DNA of 64,000 nucleotides from Haloechinothrix halophila YIM 93223. Lineage in GTDB: Bacteria > Actinomycetota > Actinomycetes > Mycobacteriales > Pseudonocardiaceae. Location: the NCBI RefSeq assembly GCF_000504245.1, contig NZ_KI632509.1:2895751-2959750 (forward strand), written 5' to 3'. Positions 3,805-61,875 of this stretch are shown piece after piece. The position numbers and the translations under genes were made by a program. Under the pieces are notes generated by a model. It did not search any database. It worked only from the letters and a program-made list of their open reading frames with translations, and was not told the DNA's origin. How positions within the stretch are numbered: the stretch's first letter is position 1; every line of letters starts with the position of its first letter.

Positions 3805-4425
3805 ATGGCCCACGTAGACCCGATCAAGCCCGAGGAGAACCCGGAGCTCGCCCCGGCGTTCGCGGCAGCCGAGGCCGCGCTGGGGTTTGTGCCGAACAGC
3901 CTGCTCACCATGGCGCGCAAGCCCGACATCCTGCGCGGCGTCGCCGCGCTCACGGCCAGCACCCTTCGCGAAGGACTCGTGTCGCGAGAGCTCAAATCCA
4001 TGATCGCCGAGGTCACCAGCACCGCCGCGGAGAGCCGCTATTGCCAGGCCCACGGGGCGGTGGGCATGAGCCGCGCCGGGATCGATCCGGCCAAGGCCGC
4101 CGCGTTGTGGGAGTACGAGACGAGCCCGCACTTCGACGATGCGGAACGCGCCGTCCTCGATCTGGCACGCAACGCCGCCGTCCTGCCCAACGCCGTGACG
4201 GTCGAGCATTTCGCAGCCCTACGGTCCCATTTCAGCGACGAGGAGATCGTGGAGATTGTCGCCGTCGTGGCCACCTTCGGCTTCTTCAACCGGTGGAACG
4301 ACACCATGGCCAGCGACCTCGAGGAAATCCCGCTCACCACGGCGACTGAGTACTTGGCCGGCACCGATTGGGAGCCAGGCAAGCACGCCAGCGGCACGGG
4401 CGCCGCCGACCCGCCACCACCCTGA
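3805..4425 (+). CDS. Carboxymuconolactone decarboxylase/AhpD-like protein
   Basis: A 206-aa all-helical AhpD-like protein. The redox or active site reads R-Y-C-Q-A-H with Cys80 and His83, so the second Cys of the AhpD CxxC motif is His here, as in many peroxidase-related CMD proteins. The C-terminal F-S-D-E-E-I-V-E-I-V-A block is typical of the family. The ATG has an AGGAG-type RBS 7 bp upstream. It follows the AMP ligase by 92 bp and may share its transcript. A distant relative at 60965 has an in-frame TGA in the corresponding motif. Its substrate is unknown. Confidence 0.8.
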   Translation: MAHVDPIKPEENPELAPAFAAAEAALGFVPNSLLTMARKPDILRGVAALTASTLREGLVSRELKSMIAEVTSTAAESRYCQAHGAVGMSRAGIDPAKAAALWEYETSPHFDDAERAVLDLARNAAVLPNAVTVEHFAALRSHFSDEEIVEIVAVVATFGFFNRWNDTMASDLEEIPLTTATEYLAGTDWEPGKHASGTGAADPPPP

Positions 4426-56060: not shown

Positions 56061-57567
56061 CAGCGTGTCAAGATTTTTGTGGATGTTTGGGCCTGTTTAT
56101 CCTTTTCGTTGCTTTTGATGAGTGGTCGAATCCGTCACTGTGTGTGACGGCGCGTTAGAGGACGAGCCGGTCGCCGAAGAGGACGGCGAAGTGGTTGAGC
56201 GCGGCTTTCCACCCGTAAGTGCCGGTGCCGCGTTCGCCCTTGGCGCGAACATGACCGTCACCGTCGATGTAGCGTCCGGTGACGTGTCGGATGCCGAGAT
56301 AAAGCAGCTTCATCGCGGCGTCCTCGGTGGTGAAATGTCCTCTGTTTTTCATGATTTTCCGCAGTTGAAAATTCAATGATTCGATCGCGTTAGTGGTATA
56401 CACCACTTTTCGTATTTCTTTCGGGTATTTGAGGAACGGAGTGAAGTCTTCCCAGGCGCGATCCCACGCGGCGAGCATGCCTGGGTATTTCGTGCCCCAC
56501 TCTTTACGGAGATGCTCCAGCGCTATCTCGGCGGCTTCGGCGTTGACGGCCGTGTAGATCGGTTTCAACGCGGCGGCAACCTTCTTGCGGTCGGAATAGG
56601 ACACGTATTTCATCGAATTCCGGATCAAATGAATCACGCAGGTTTGCACCTCGGCTTTCGGCCACACAGTGCGGATCGCGTCCGGCAGTCCGGTCAGCCC
56701 GTCGCAGCACACGATCAGTACGTCTTCCACGCCGCGGTTCTTCACCTCGGTCAGTACCGCTAGCCAGTGGGCCTTGCTCTCCCCCTCGGTGGGGCCGATC
56801 CACACACCCAGCACGTGCTTGAACCCGTCGACGTCGACACCGGTGACGATGTAGGCCGGCCGGTTGATCACCACCCCGTTGGTGCGGATCTTGACCACCA
56901 GCGCGTCGATGTAGGCGATCACATACACCTGGTCCAGCGGACGGTTCTGCCACGTCTTGATCTCGTCATGCACCACATCGGTCACATTCGAAATCAGCTC
57001 GTGGCTCGCCTCGGCGCCATACACCTCGAGCAAATGATCCTTGATATCGCGGGTGGTCATCCCTTTCGCATACAGCGACAAGATCATGTCATCGATCTGG
57101 CCGAGCCGACGCTGATGCTTCTTCACGATCCGCGGTTCAAACCCGCCCGTGCGGTCCCGCGGAACCTCGATCTGGACCTTACCGGTGTTGGTGGTGACCG
57201 TCTTCGCCGAATACCCGTTGCGGGAATTGCCCGTTCCGCGTCCCGCAGCGTCGTGTTTCGCGTACCCGAGATGCTCATGCATCTCCGCGCCCAACGCCCG
57301 CTCGATCACCGCCTTACTCATCTGATTCAGAATGCCGTCCGGGCCATCCAACGGCGTCCCCGACGCTTTCGCGTCAGCCAGAATCCGATCAATACCCTCC
57401 GGCGAGACCAGCTCCGCCAACCGCCGCGAAGCCTCCTCCGCCGCCGAGCCCTCGACCGCATCCTGCGCCTTGTCCGTCGTCACGTAGCGTTCCCTTCCAC
57501 CGGCCCGGACCCTCCGGCCCACCGATGATCATGGCCCGCCCACTTCCACAAAAGATCTTGCACCCCC
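56061..57567. mobile_element. IS256-family insertion sequence, intact
   Basis: 1507 bp bounded by TCATGTCC direct repeats. Imperfect terminal inverted repeats: the left end has GTGTCAAGATTTTTGTGGA and the right end GTGCAAGATCTTTTGTGGA (read inwards). One transposase gene fills it on the minus strand. The intact gene, TIRs and exact TSD indicate recent, possibly active, insertion. Confidence 0.85.
56155..57483 (-). CDS. IS256 (mutator) family transposase
   Basis: A 442-aa DDE transposase: R-N-G-Y-S-A-K-T-V-T-T, D-A-L-V-V-K-I-R (first Asp), C-C-D-G-L-T-G-L-P-D-A-I (second Asp) and T-T-N-A-I-E-S-L-N (Glu). It starts at GTG 57483 with GGAAGGGAA. Full length with no frameshift. Confidence 0.93.
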   Translation of the reverse strand: MTTDKAQDAVEGSAAEEASRRLAELVSPEGIDRILADAKASGTPLDGPDGILNQMSKAVIERALGAEMHEHLGYAKHDAAGRGTGNSRNGYSAKTVTTNTGKVQIEVPRDRTGGFEPRIVKKHQRRLGQIDDMILSLYAKGMTTRDIKDHLLEVYGAEASHELISNVTDVVHDEIKTWQNRPLDQVYVIAYIDALVVKIRTNGVVINRPAYIVTGVDVDGFKHVLGVWIGPTEGESKAHWLAVLTEVKNRGVEDVLIVCCDGLTGLPDAIRTVWPKAEVQTCVIHLIRNSMKYVSYSDRKKVAAALKPIYTAVNAEAAEIALEHLRKEWGTKYPGMLAAWDRAWEDFTPFLKYPKEIRKVVYTTNAIESLNFQLRKIMKNRGHFTTEDAAMKLLYLGIRHVTGRYIDGDGHVRAKGERGTGTYGWKAALNHFAVLFGDRLVL

Positions 57568-57764: not shown

Positions 57765-58070
57765 ATGTCTTCGATCGATCGCGTCTCGGCCATCTCGCCG
57801 CTGCTGCGGGTCTACGTGTCACCGGACTGCCCGACGTGGCACATCTCGATGGCGATCATCGATGCCGTTCGCAGGGCGCGCCCCGCACAGCGGGTGCGGG
57901 TCATCGATCTCGCGAAGGATCCAGACACACCGCTTCCGAACGGCGTTGTCGGCACTCCGACATACATGCTCGACGCCCACGTCATTTCGATGGGCAACCC
58001 GGAACTCGCCGAACTATTGGCCTGGTTGGACGACGCGTCTCACCGCGCGTCTCACCGCGCACACCACTGA
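57765..58070 (+). CDS. Thioredoxin/glutaredoxin-like protein with CxxW
   Basis: A 101-aa paralog of 42601-42888: L-R-V-Y-V-S-P-D-C-P-T-W-H, with the second Cys of CxxC replaced by Trp (TGG). The cis-Pro block G-V-V-G-T-P-T-Y-M-L and S-M-G-N-P are kept. The C-terminus has a short repeat (A-S-H-R-A-S-H-R) from a 12-bp tandem repeat. The RBS is AAGGAGGAG. It can act only as a monothiol protein, if redox-active. Confidence 0.75.
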   Translation: MSSIDRVSAISPLLRVYVSPDCPTWHISMAIIDAVRRARPAQRVRVIDLAKDPDTPLPNGVVGTPTYMLDAHVISMGNPELAELLAWLDDASHRASHRAHH

Positions 58071-58154: not shown

Positions 58155-59921
58155 TTAGCGCACCCGTCGGGTGTCGTCCGGGAACCGCTGTGTGACGCCT
58201 GCGCGGTCGAGCAACTCCAGCAGTGGGACCGCCACCCGCCGGGTGGTGCCCAGCGCTTGGCGCGCTTGGCTCAGCGTGAACGGGTCGGGCAGCTCACGCA
58301 GTATCTCTGCCGCGCGACGGTCGGCACCGGGAAGCAGCACGATTCCGTCGGACACCTTGAGTAGTTTGCCCGCCCGGACGGCGGCACCCAGTTCTTTCGG
58401 ACCGAGGCCGAGTTCCTTCAGCCGGTGGGCGTCCGGGGCGACGAACGGTTCCCGCCGCAGCTCGTTGGCGAGCTGGTCCACGGCGCGGCTGGTCGGAGCG
58501 GGCAGCGACGTGGCGGCGTCGGCACGGCGCACCACGCCCTTGTCGAGCACCAGGCCGGCCGCCCGAGCCAGCGGCTCGACGAGTTCAGCGGACGGCAGAC
58601 CGAGGCGCCCGGCAACAGCCTTCGCCGGTGGCCCCGACTCCAGCGGATGCGCCACACACCACTGCTCGACTTCCGTCCGGATGTCGATGACCCATTTCTT
58701 CCAGCGGTCCGGGTCGACGCGCCAGGCGCCGACGCTCGTGCCGACCGGCTCCATCCCCATGGCTCGCAGTTCGGCCTCGGTGACGGCGACGCGATGAGCC
58801 AGGTGCGCCTGTGCCGCCGCATGCGAGCTCCGTGCCGCATCGGCCAGCACGAGGCCGCGCGAACGTGCGGCACCCCGGTGGGCCAGCGGCGGTGGCCGGA
58901 CGTCGAGCACGGTGGCGCCAGCGAGGATCTGGTGCCGTCCCGGGTCGCGCAACAGCGCCCGGTCACCGGCCCGCAGTGGTAGCGGTCGTCGCAGTGACAG
59001 CCGCGCAGCGTGCGGCCCGAGTGGTCGAATGCGTACCGCCAGCGCGGTGGAGCCGATGTGCAGAATCGGCTGGCGCGGCAGCTCGTCCGCCGGCAGTTCG
59101 GCTGGGTCGAGTGCGACGTCGATCTCGTCGGTCATCAGCCACGCATCCGGGGTGAGCAGCGCGTCACCCTGTCCCACGGCGTCGCGGTCGATGCCACGGA
59201 GGTTCACGGCCACGCGAGCGACAGCGCCGACTTCGGTGCTGGTCTCGCCGAGCGTCTGGAGCCCGCGGACGCGCATCCGCTGGCCGGTGGTGGCGAGCAC
59301 CAGCTCGTCTCCGGTTCGCAGGGTGCCTGCCCGCAATGTCCCGGTGACCACCGTGCCTGCCCCGCCGATGGTGAAGGCGCGATCGATCCACAGCCGGACG
59401 TCCCCGGCGAGGTCGGCCGTGGGCAGCCCGGCGACCAGTCGACTAAGCTCCGTCCGTAACTCGGACAGTCCGTGGCCGGTGACGCCGCTGACGGCAACGG
59501 CTGGCGGCGTGCCGAGCGAGGTCCGCGCGATGCGCTCGTGAGCTTGCCGCGTGGCGGGGGCCGGGTCGGCGATGTCCGCCCGAGTCACCGCGAGCACACC
59601 GTGGCGCACGTCCAGCGCGTGCAGGGCCGCCAGGTGCTCCTCGGACTGCGGCATCCAGCCCTCGTCGGCGGCGACGACGAACAGCACGGCCGGAGCGGGA
59701 CCAACACCGGCGAGCATGTTCGGCACGAATCGCTCATGACCGGGCACGTCGACGAACGCGACCCGACTACCGTCATCCAATGTGGTCCAGCCAAACCCGA
59801 GGTTGATCGTCAGGCCGCGCTCGCGCTCTTCGGCCCAGCGGTCCGGTTCCATGCCGGTCAGACTCCGGACCAGTGTGGACTTGCCGTGATCCACGTGGCC
59901 CGCGGTGGCGATCACGTACAT
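58155..59921 (-). CDS. selB: Selenocysteine-specific elongation factor SelB
   Basis: A 588-aa translation GTPase. G1 G-H-V-D-H-G-K-S-T, G2/G3 region with R-G-L-T-I-N-L-G-F and D-V-P-G-H-E-R-F-V-P-N-M-L, then EF-Tu-like domains 2-3, and a C-terminal set of winged helices (SelB type) that bind the SECIS hairpin. The opening M-Y-V-I-A-T-A-G-H is characteristic of SelB. It delivers Sec-tRNA to UGA codons. It lies 84 bp downstream of tRNA-Sec on the same strand. Confidence 0.95.
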   Translation of the reverse strand: MYVIATAGHVDHGKSTLVRSLTGMEPDRWAEERERGLTINLGFGWTTLDDGSRVAFVDVPGHERFVPNMLAGVGPAPAVLFVVAADEGWMPQSEEHLAALHALDVRHGVLAVTRADIADPAPATRQAHERIARTSLGTPPAVAVSGVTGHGLSELRTELSRLVAGLPTADLAGDVRLWIDRAFTIGGAGTVVTGTLRAGTLRTGDELVLATTGQRMRVRGLQTLGETSTEVGAVARVAVNLRGIDRDAVGQGDALLTPDAWLMTDEIDVALDPAELPADELPRQPILHIGSTALAVRIRPLGPHAARLSLRRPLPLRAGDRALLRDPGRHQILAGATVLDVRPPPLAHRGAARSRGLVLADAARSSHAAAQAHLAHRVAVTEAELRAMGMEPVGTSVGAWRVDPDRWKKWVIDIRTEVEQWCVAHPLESGPPAKAVAGRLGLPSAELVEPLARAAGLVLDKGVVRRADAATSLPAPTSRAVDQLANELRREPFVAPDAHRLKELGLGPKELGAAVRAGKLLKVSDGIVLLPGADRRAAEILRELPDPFTLSQARQALGTTRRVAVPLLELLDRAGVTQRFPDDTRRVR

Positions 59922-60005
59922 CAGGCTCCTCCCCGCGCCGCCAACACGGCGTCTGTGCGCGGAATCCGCCGTCGAACATCCTCCATGGGTCGCTCCCCCG
60001 AAAAA

Positions 60006-60100
60006 TGGCGGAGGCGGACGGGAATCGAACCCGCCAACGACAGGAACTGCCGTTCACCGGTTTTGAAGACCGGGCCGATCACCAGACCGGACACGCCTCC
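60006..60100 (-). tRNA. selC: tRNA-Sec (anticodon UCA)
   Basis: 95 nt with encoded CCA (60006-60008). Anticodon loop CTTCAAA with anticodon TCA at 60064-60066, complementary to UGA. The acceptor strands GGAGGCG and CGCCTCC pair. The long variable arm pairs AACGGCAG with CTGTCGTT (8 bp, one wobble). The T-arm has GTTCGATTC. The length and extra arm are those of selenocysteine tRNA, not Leu or Ser tRNA. Confidence 0.95.
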
Positions 60101-60126: not shown

Positions 60127-60768
60127 TCAGCCCGTCGACTCAACCGGCACGAGGTCACCGTCCGGCACGGTCACCTCCCCGCGACGCCATGAGCGCACCT
60201 CTGCCGCGATCGACTCGCACATCACGGCTGCCATCGAGGGGTCGGTTCGTGCGGTCAGGAACGCACCAATCGTGGCCGAGATGAGCATCCGAGCCCGCGC
60301 CGGAACAACGTCCGCATCGGTCTCGCCCCGATCCACCGCCGTCCCAAGCGCCGTCGCGAACGCCTCGTACAGCCGCTCACGGTGAGCCGACGCTTCCCGC
60401 ACCACGAGATCATCACTGGCATCCGAGGTTGCCATCATGTTGATCAACAGACACCCTCGCAGCGCCCGCTCGGGGTCGTTCCGGAACGCCGCCGCGCGAG
60501 CGCCGAAGAACGCGGCCACCGCGTCCAGCCCCGCATCCGGTTCCCGCATCCCCCTGAGCATCGGCGTGGTCACCGTGTCGACGTAGCTGCGCACCGCGTG
60601 GTCGAACAGCTGCCGTTTGCTGCCGAACGTGTGGTAAAGACTTGAGCGGCTAGCCCCGGTCCGCTCCTCAAGCTCCCCAATCGAGGTGAGCTCATATCCC
60701 CGCTCCCAGAACACATCGCGCGCGGCGACCAGCACCGCGGCCGGTTCCTGGATTCGTGGTCGCGCCAT
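60127..60768 (-). CDS. TetR family transcriptional regulator
   Basis: A 213-aa TetR: HTH with L-V-A-A-R-D-V-F-W-E-R-G-Y-E-L-T-S-I-G-E-L-E-E-R-T-G-A-S-R-S-S-L-Y-H-T-F-G-S-K (hyphenated motif), and a TetR_C with G-C-L-L-I-N. The ATG at 60768 begins M-A-R-P-R-I. It is divergent from the AhpD-like selenoprotein gene, whose operon it may repress. The gap also contains CCGT-N8-ACGG. Confidence 0.88.
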   Translation of the reverse strand: MARPRIQEPAAVLVAARDVFWERGYELTSIGELEERTGASRSSLYHTFGSKRQLFDHAVRSYVDTVTTPMLRGMREPDAGLDAVAAFFGARAAAFRNDPERALRGCLLINMMATSDASDDLVVREASAHRERLYEAFATALGTAVDRGETDADVVPARARMLISATIGAFLTARTDPSMAAVMCESIAAEVRSWRRGEVTVPDGDLVPVESTG

Positions 60769-60964: not shown

Positions 60965-61546
60965 ATGCCAACTCGAGTGAATCCCTTACGGCCGGGAGAG
61001 AGTCCCGATCCCGAGGTCAACGAGCTACTCGAAGGCGCTCGGAACGACTGGTGGGGCGACTCGGCGATGTTCGGGGTGATCGGGCGCAACCCACAGCTAC
61101 TCAAGCGCATCGTGCCGGTGTTCCAGGCATTCTTTCAAGAAGGCCAGGTCGAGCCGCATATCCACGAAATGATGCGGATCAAAACCGGGCAGATGAACGA
61201 CTGCACCTATTGAATGGCTGTTCGCACCACCGCCGTGCGCGGTGCAATAACCCCCAAGGAAGACGCGATCAGCGGACGCCAGCCCCAACCAGGCGACATC
61301 CTCAACGCCAGGGAAGCCCTGGCAGTCCAACTCGCCGAGCGTATGGCGCTCGACCCGCACACAGTGGACGACGACTTCTTCGCGCGCCTGAAGGAGCACT
61401 TCTCCGAAGACGAAATCGTGGAACTTGTGTTCGCCACGTCCATCTTCAACTGGGGTAACAAGTTCAACATCACGATGCACATGAACGCGGACGAGGCCAG
61501 CGAGTACGACAAGCACATGCACTACCACCAGGAGGCTTTGACCTGA
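60965..61546 (+). CDS. AhpD-like selenoprotein (CxxU; in-frame TGA)
   Basis: One 194-codon frame broken only by TGA at 61211-61213 (codon 83). Around it the protein reads M-N-D-C-T-Y-U-M-A-V-R-T-T-A-V-R. AhpD/CMD proteins have C-T-Y-C-M-A-V-R-T there, so the TGA stands exactly at the second redox Cys (C80-x-x-U83). Both halves together give a full AhpD-like protein of 193 aa (E-P-H-I-H-E-M-M-R-I-K-T before, F-S-E-D-E-I-V-E-L-V-F after). RBS GGAGGG. A hairpin follows at 61228. selB and tRNA-Sec are adjacent. It probably reduces peroxides or disulfides with the downstream thioredoxin. AhpD-like selenoproteins are known. Confidence 0.9.
61228..61244 (+). promoter_or_regulatory. Bacterial SECIS hairpin (probable)
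   Basis: CACCGC-CGTGC-GCGGTG: a perfect 6-bp stem with a 5-nt loop containing GU. The loop starts 21 nt after the TGA, within the usual 16-37 nt window for SelB recognition. Confidence 0.65.
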
Positions 61547-61875
61547 TGCGGATCGAGGAACTCGACACCGCTGGGCTGCGTCGCGTCCTGCGTGACGAGT
61601 CGCGCGCGGTGCTCGTCGATTACTGGTCTCCGTGGTGCGCACCGTGCCGAACCTTACGGCCGCATCTCGAGCAGTTGGCCGACGAGCACCGCGACAACGC
61701 GCGTATCGTCGCGGTCAACGTCGAAGCCGAAACCGAAGCCGCCGAGCAATTCGAGGTGGCGTCGCTGCCGACCTTGATCCTGTTCGCTGACGGTGAGATG
61801 CGACGCCGGTTCACCGGACCCACACTCCCGTCCGAGCTGAACCAGGCGCTCACCGCTCTCCCGGCACGAGGCTGA
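61546..61875 (+). CDS. Thioredoxin
   Basis: A 109-aa thioredoxin: V-D-Y-W-S-P-W-C-A-P-C-R active site and S-L-P-T-L-I-L cis-Pro block. The ATG overlaps the stop of the selenoprotein gene (TGATG), so production is coupled. It is the likely electron donor for the CxxU protein. Confidence 0.92.
   Translation: MRIEELDTAGLRRVLRDESRAVLVDYWSPWCAPCRTLRPHLEQLADEHRDNARIVAVNVEAETEAAEQFEVASLPTLILFADGEMRRRFTGPTLPSELNQALTALPARG

Follow-up and report, generated by a model that had tools for sequence, protein, structure and literature searches.

An in-frame UGA in an AhpD-like gene near selB and tRNA-Sec of Haloechinothrix halophila: sequence evidence for selenocysteine

The reading frame and its UGA codon

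The window analysed here, a stretch of 64,000 nucleotides from Haloechinothrix halophila YIM 93223, contains two adjoining half-ORFs that raise the question of whether the TGA codon between them terminates translation or encodes selenocysteine (Sec) within a single gene. The surrounding genome is a single contig of 5.55 Mb, 98.9% complete. Mechanical ORF calling divides the region into ORFs at 60965-61213 (82 aa) and 61214-61546 (110 aa), exactly the pair that an earlier, sequence-only reading of this DNA had expected from standard gene callers. Both lie in one frame, in which the sole TGA is at 61211-61213; readthrough of this codon gives a protein of 193 aa and 22.0 kDa (60965..61546, + strand), with Sec83 in the motif N-D-C80-T-Y-U83. 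The proposal of that reading that the halves meet at C-T-Y-TGA is therefore borne out. A ribosome-binding-site-like GGAGG lies immediately 5' of this ahpD-like gene.

When Pfam was searched with the joined protein, the CMD family (PF02627) was matched at an E value of 7.1e-4 and 20.0 bits, under the gathering score of 23, while neither half alone gave any match at E values up to 1. For NCBIfam TIGR01926, the E value was 7.3e-17 with the joined protein, 4.6e-9 with the downstream half and 0.12 with the upstream half. As far as sequence can show, 60965-61546 is one selenoprotein gene.

Two AhpD-like paralogues were detected in the genome at E values up to 0.001, and an in-frame stop is absent from both. 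One, L002, is a distant paralogue at 3811-4326 (+) of the window (26% identical, E 3.7e-13), in which a regular expression for the CxxC region gave nothing useful; the paralogue L003 has a CSWC stretch.

Relatives of the protein and the hairpin after the UGA

A scan of a named genome collection yielded 30 loci, from which one partial sequence (L042) and one distant sequence with Ser at the site (L044, 21% identical) were set aside before counting. The 28 near full-length relatives that remain are 53-70% identical to the window protein over nearly their full length, and span four bacterial phyla and one haloarchaeal bin. Codon 83 is TGA in 21 of them and Cys in 7, making 22 and 7 of the 29 aligned sequences once the window gene is included. 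The Sec forms are labelled Acidimicrobiia, Acidimicrobiales/Ilumatobacteraceae, Acidobacteria, Chloroflexi and Alphaproteobacteria/Hyphomicrobiales, with two described just as "bacterium"; the Cys forms come from Pseudonocardia sulfidoxydans, a Rhodococcus bin, a Haloarculaceae bin, Duganella, Methylibium, Shinella and Pseudomonas. These labels carry some uncertainty, because most of the relatives are metagenome bins. The sequence-only reading had allowed that homologs might end at the same TGA, and had proposed an alignment with Cys homologs: all 28 relatives either continue through the codon or replace it with Cys, and the seven Cys forms align at precisely this position. On the two sides of the UGA, the relatives are identical to the window protein to about the same degree (77% before and 68% after in L015, 68% and 70% in L016).

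The distribution of Sec and Cys on a maximum-likelihood tree requires two changes between the forms, compared to a mean of 6.4 after shuffling, with none of 500 shuffles giving so low a number. The well-supported branches force just one change, and the long branches meet at L033.

Wider searches were conducted in several sets of sequences. In a scan of viral contigs, 20 stretches fitted a pattern, of which none was confirmed by tblastn. A draw of 390 genomes from the family, searched at E values up to 1e-20, gave matches in the organism's own genome and in P. sulfidoxydans (L025), hence no new member, and draws from the phylum (396 genomes, E up to 1e-25) and the order (397 genomes, E up to 1e-35) matched the organism's own genome alone. 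Homologs were also seen on plasmids in eight records, all haloarchaea by name. The one record opened, a Halorientalis marina plasmid (L098), carries a homolog annotated as a CMD family protein with Cys at the Sec site and Arg at residue 87; both annotation and sequence place trxA 1 bp after it.

Downstream of the UGA, a bacterial SECIS-type hairpin is predicted at 61228..61244 (+), in which the stem CACCGC (61228-61233) pairs with GCGGTG (61239-61244) around the loop CGTGC (61234-61238). The stem begins 14 nt past the UGA and the loop GU (61235-61236) lies 21 nt past it, in agreement with the 6 bp GU-loop hairpin described by the sequence-only reading. Structure prediction after the TGA, also suggested there, gave a single structure with a 6 bp stem and 5 nt loop when RNAalifold was applied to the 22 Sec sequences. 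In these, 97.7% of cells are paired, against a shuffled mean of 84.7, and 16 cells are changed on both sides, against a shuffled mean of 3.4; the covariation score is 0.421, compared to 0.179 for shuffled alignments. None of 500 shuffles reached any of these three values. Two further measures are not striking, these being the number of pairs with a double change (4/6; shuffled mean 2.2, 39/500 as high) and the number of further pair types (6; shuffled mean 6.2, 386/500 as high). Sliding the partners by one to three columns lowers pairing to 15-64%, and the same columns in the 7 Cys sequences are 28.6% paired, no better than shuffled. The loop opens with (C/G)GU in 22/22 Sec sequences, and one pair is broken in three of them (L038-L040).

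Synonymous recoding was used as a control for constraint from the protein. The Sec genes form a mean of 5.86 of the 6 pairs versus 3.82 in their recodings, while the corresponding values for the Cys genes are 1.71 and 1.40. All six pairs of the window gene are made by 2% of its synonymous recodings, and the pair number observed in single Sec relatives is reached by 0.6-21% of theirs; this signal in single genes is modest, as the stem is already favoured by the sequence of the protein. The argument for the hairpin is based on the 22 Sec sequences jointly, which are related and not independent of one another. A search of Rfam with the 57-64 kb region of the window, at E values up to 1, returned the tRNA-Sec and a below-threshold miRNA match only, with no SECIS-type family.

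Selenocysteine genes in two loci

The window contains a tRNA-Sec with anticodon TCA (60006..60100, - strand; identified by ARAGORN, and scoring 80.9 bits with Rfam RF01852) and the Sec-specific elongation factor gene selB (58155..59921, - strand; TIGR00475 288.4 bits, cut-off 242.25), the sole selB above the cut-off in a search of the whole genome. The sequence-only reading placed both within 1 kb of ahpD, which is true of tRNA-Sec, at a distance of 864 bp, whereas the selB start codon (59921) is just over this limit at 1,043 bp. It also regarded absence of selA or selD as evidence against a selenoprotein: both are present in the genome outside the window, above their NCBIfam cut-offs (selA 429.6 bits, cut-off 267.9; selD 366.5 bits, cut-off 125). 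The whole-genome search found two tRNA-Sec genes above the Rfam threshold, at 80.9 and 79.7 bits.

The Sec genes are divided between two places in the genome. At about 1.03 Mb (G000:C1:1030681-1035041), selA and a tRNA-Sec are accompanied by a formate dehydrogenase gene containing a UGA, without selB; the window has selB and the second tRNA-Sec, without an intact selA. The formate dehydrogenase gene adjoins selA and has one in-frame TGA (...ENQARI-U-HSATV...), which brings the likely selenoprotein genes of the organism to at least two. In the hairpin behind its UGA, the loop reads GGUCU and the GU occupies positions 23-24, counting from the U of the UGA, compared to 25-26 in ahpD.

Between tRNA-Sec and selB, a 21-codon frame (59921..59986, - strand) has the appearance of a selA remnant, its first 16 codons matching the SelA N-terminus and its stop overlapping the selB start. 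The remnant MEDVRRRIPRTDAVLA, compared with MDDVRRRIPRTDAVLA, is identical at 15/16 positions to the SelA start of L089, a locus from the same genus in which tRNA-Sec, selA and selB are intact. A deletion of selA at the window locus is the likely cause of the remnant, judging by this match. Formate dehydrogenase was not found in the 12 kb covered at L089, while in one further locus from the genus (L090) and one from the family (L092), tRNA-Sec, selA, selB and formate dehydrogenase form a single cluster. A second selB in the genome of L090 (L091) lies with a more distant formate-dehydrogenase-like gene, and with no selA or tRNA-Sec in the 9 kb covered. The window selB shares 80% identity with the selB of L089 and 60% with that of L090; by contrast, selA and formate dehydrogenase at 1.03 Mb share 87% identity with their L090 counterparts. 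These contrasting identities suggest two loci of different origin, each of which may have lost what the other kept. The two tRNA-Sec genes (60006-60100 in the window, 8944-9038 of L014) agree at 83/95 positions and are predicted to fold alike. Pairs of tRNA-Sec genes with compensatory changes are known in eight bacterial genomes, according to PMC5330540.

Two further ORFs were observed around selB. A short one at 57765-58070 (+), which stops around 85 bases short of the selB end, contains CPTW and matches Thioredoxin_3 weakly (E 0.0031), and is possibly another redox protein; a 455 aa ORF at 56155-57522 (-) resembles, by eye, a mutator-type transposase.

Host genomes were searched for SelB in the case of 16 of the 28 relatives (11 Sec-form, 5 Cys-form). 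It was found above the cut-off in 11/11 Sec-form versus 2/5 Cys-form genomes; these two are P. sulfidoxydans (L025) and Duganella (L034), and the Cys-form genomes without SelB above the cut-off are L036 Methylibium, L041 Shinella and L043 Pseudomonas sp. JUb42.

The ATG directly after the TGA, and the two ORFs given by standard calling, are what would be expected if the UGA were a normal stop, with the downstream half either a separate gene starting at that ATG or the product of decay. This is very improbable: residue 84 is Met in only 4/28 relatives (L015, L016, L019 and L026), hence the ATG is no conserved start, TGA recurs at the same codon in 21 relatives, seven Cys forms have no stop at the site, the window frame continues to its end without a further stop, and the hairpin covaries. 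Slighter still is the chance that the UGA is decoded as one of the standard amino acids, such as Trp, for which nothing speaks beyond the in-frame TGA itself, and against which stand the Cys carried by all seven relatives lacking the TGA, the complete set of Sec machinery genes in the genome and the SelB of every Sec-form genome searched. The earlier identification of an ahpD-like selenoprotein with an in-frame TGA is accordingly upheld by the relatives with TGA or Cys at this codon, the covarying hairpin and the Sec machinery genes, and the assignment of Sec to codon 83 comes close to being shown from these sequence comparisons.

Fold, neighbourhood and predicted role

An AlphaFold model was built from the 29-row alignment with Cys in place of Sec, and has the all-helical AhpD fold at a mean pLDDT of 92.5. 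At E values up to 0.001, it matched 36 PDB chains, titled as AhpD, CMD, peroxidase-related, antioxidant-type, PA0269 or Bmp8. The top Foldseek matches were the debrominase Bmp8, in first place, D. radiodurans AhpD and several peroxidase-related proteins (E 4e-6 to 3e-5), and a profile search recovered the same structural group, with 13 sequences at E values up to 0.001, Bmp8 included. The fold is shared with the AhpD and peroxidase-related structures 6k40 (Deinococcus), 2pfx, 2oyo, 2prr and PA0269 (2ijc), with Foldseek E values of 5e-6 to 3.3e-5 for the best chains and TM scores by query of approximately 0.57-0.73, although these proteins are only 16-24% identical to the window protein and have Cys rather than Sec.

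The catalytic set of AhpD consists of Glu, CxxC and His. E68, C80 and U/C83 are invariant in 29/29 members of the window family, but residue 87 is Arg in 29/29, so that the canonical set is incomplete. Alignments were compared for two distinct structures, PA0269 and 2oyo. Both likewise have CxxC and a Glu 12 residues ahead of the first Cys; however, they have His four residues past the second Cys, at the position matching Arg87. The spacing Glu-x11-Cys-xx-Cys-xxx-His of Mycobacterium tuberculosis AhpD is matched by E68, C80, U83 and R87, with Arg in place of His. This replacement counts against the proposed catalysis, and the active site is a predicted one.

Comparison with defined families gives a similar picture. 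TIGR01926 is matched by 29/29 members, yet the window protein scores 61.7 bits against a cut-off of 81.8, and the best E value of the 29, 7.2e-19, would correspond to about 68 bits, also below the cut-off. The AhpD-like identity given by the sequence-only reading consequently stands for the type of fold, and falls short of canonical AhpD in both score and Arg87. NF053654 (GroundWater_YciW), a YciW-related family also described as "(seleno)protein", is matched by 29/29 members at E values up to 1e-5; the window protein, at 54.6 bits, stays below the cut-off of 310 and is therefore no member.

Downstream, and overlapping the ahpD stop in the TGATG at 61546 as previously described, lies a thioredoxin gene with a WCAPC motif (61546..61875, + strand; Pfam Thioredoxin 2.7e-23). 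The divergent TetR is also present: a TetR-family regulator gene (TetR_N and TetR_C_13 in Pfam; start codon chosen by the analyst) at 60127..60768 (-), between tRNA-Sec and ahpD, is the likely regulator of ahpD and trx. Thioredoxin genes are found downstream in 19/28 related loci, 18 by tblastn with the window thioredoxin and L040 by Pfam; divided by form, these are 12/21 Sec loci and 7/7 Cys loci. No thioredoxin gene was found alongside five loci labelled Acidobacteria (L027, L030, L031, L035 and L037), three labelled Chloroflexi, and L023, some of these contigs stopping shortly afterwards; this neighbour is therefore not obligatory. Thioredoxin reductase occurs in the flanks of 6/28 loci, all of them Cys forms (L025, L026, L034, L036, L041 and L043), and in 0/21 Sec-form loci. 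The reductase brought by the Cys-form loci fits a thioredoxin-fed enzyme without proving one; its lack in the flanks of the 21 Sec loci counts against such an enzyme. A TetR similar to that of the window is found in the flanks of 11/28 loci.

Of the compact Sec-redox operon suggested earlier, the ahpD-trx pair recurs, but linkage to selB or tRNA-Sec was seen in 0/28 related loci, with flanks of up to 5 kb that are shorter in several cases. The notion of a selB-tRNA-Sec-ahpD island was dropped because of this lack of linkage and because SelB-like matches occur widely across the family (263/390 genomes at E up to 1e-40, a threshold looser than the SelB cut-off). A dihydrolipoamide dehydrogenase partner was sought upstream of the Acidobacteria and Chloroflexi loci, by considering one upstream gene at each of eight loci, and was not found; these genes encode a glycosyltransferase, MmgE/PrpD (two), an AMP-binding enzyme, PilZ, a kinase, a thioesterase and one protein without a match.

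The frame, the position-specific exchange of Sec and Cys, the Sec genes and the covarying hairpin, along with the fold predicted for the protein and a thioredoxin neighbour that recurs, lead us to infer, with good confidence, an AhpD-fold selenoprotein that acts with the adjoining thioredoxin as a peroxidase dependent on it, with the divergent TetR as regulator. UGA codon 83 would be decoded in the cell as Sec by the SelB and tRNA-Sec of the window, together with SelA and SelD encoded elsewhere in the genome, with the hairpin 14 nt past the UGA directing insertion. Sec83 would be the attacking residue of the C80-x-x-U83 pair, reducing a hydroperoxide, perhaps organic, and passing through a selenenic acid to a selenenylsulfide with C80. 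Thioredoxin, presumably co-translated from its overlapping gene, would then reopen the selenenylsulfide, and expression of the pair would be controlled by TetR.

The main rival accepts the insertion of Sec, but holds that the main activity of the enzyme is disulfide reduction fed by thioredoxin, or reductive dehalogenation of the kind carried out by Bmp8. The position of Bmp8 as top PDB fold match, its recovery by sequence as well, and the Arg87 found where PA0269 and 2oyo have His all accord with this; on the other hand, identity to Bmp8 is just 18-19%, the other close structures are mostly titled AhpD or peroxidase-related, and no dehalogenation gene was identified by Pfam among 30 neighbour proteins. 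We consider this rival unlikely, though of some weight, and prefer the thioredoxin-dependent peroxidase.

AhpD interacts with AhpC and lipoyl partners. The partner of the window protein is probably thioredoxin, a difference from the M. tuberculosis enzyme. The general type of selenoprotein is itself already known. A 2005 study of the Sargasso Sea metagenome predicted AhpD-like CxxU selenoproteins (PMC1088965); they were found in many marine samples (PMC2398784), number two in sequenced genomes in one account (PMC1794560), and are filed under TIGR01926 or COG2128 in reviews (PMC13188914, PMC9312934). The CxxU motif is given in PMC1088965, PMC2398784 and PMC13188914. As far as these descriptions extend, the window protein shares with them the AhpD superfamily, Sec as the second residue of CxxC (here C-T-Y-U), a downstream SECIS and Cys homologs; it differs in falling under the TIGR01926 cut-off and in the Arg87 of 29/29 members, a comparison made by description rather than by sequence. 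A literature search, outside which most subscription papers lay, found the AhpD-like CxxU family and no description of a thioredoxin-linked form. The Arg-type site and the thioredoxin linkage may mark a separate subfamily, whose Sec form is easily missed, since standard annotation turns it into two meaningless fragments.

A broader interpretation, which we put forward as tentative and somewhat more likely to be wrong than right, is that this Arg-type AhpD subfamily is an undescribed one, forming a self-contained module of peroxidase, thioredoxin, in some cases thioredoxin reductase, and TetR. Such a module would have spread between phyla and onto haloarchaeal plasmids, with Sec kept only in hosts with SelB and the Cys forms mostly having their own reductase. 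In H. halophila, it would lie at a selB/tRNA-Sec locus from which selA was lost, with selA and tRNA-Sec, but no selB, at the formate dehydrogenase locus, so that Sec insertion would depend on two complementing half-loci of different origin with two different tRNA-Sec genes. The two half-loci, which carry selA and selB respectively and a tRNA-Sec each, represent a testable case of mosaic Sec machinery. As the Sec and Cys forms often share the thioredoxin neighbour, the family also offers a natural comparison of the benefit of selenium in a thioredoxin-linked AhpD.
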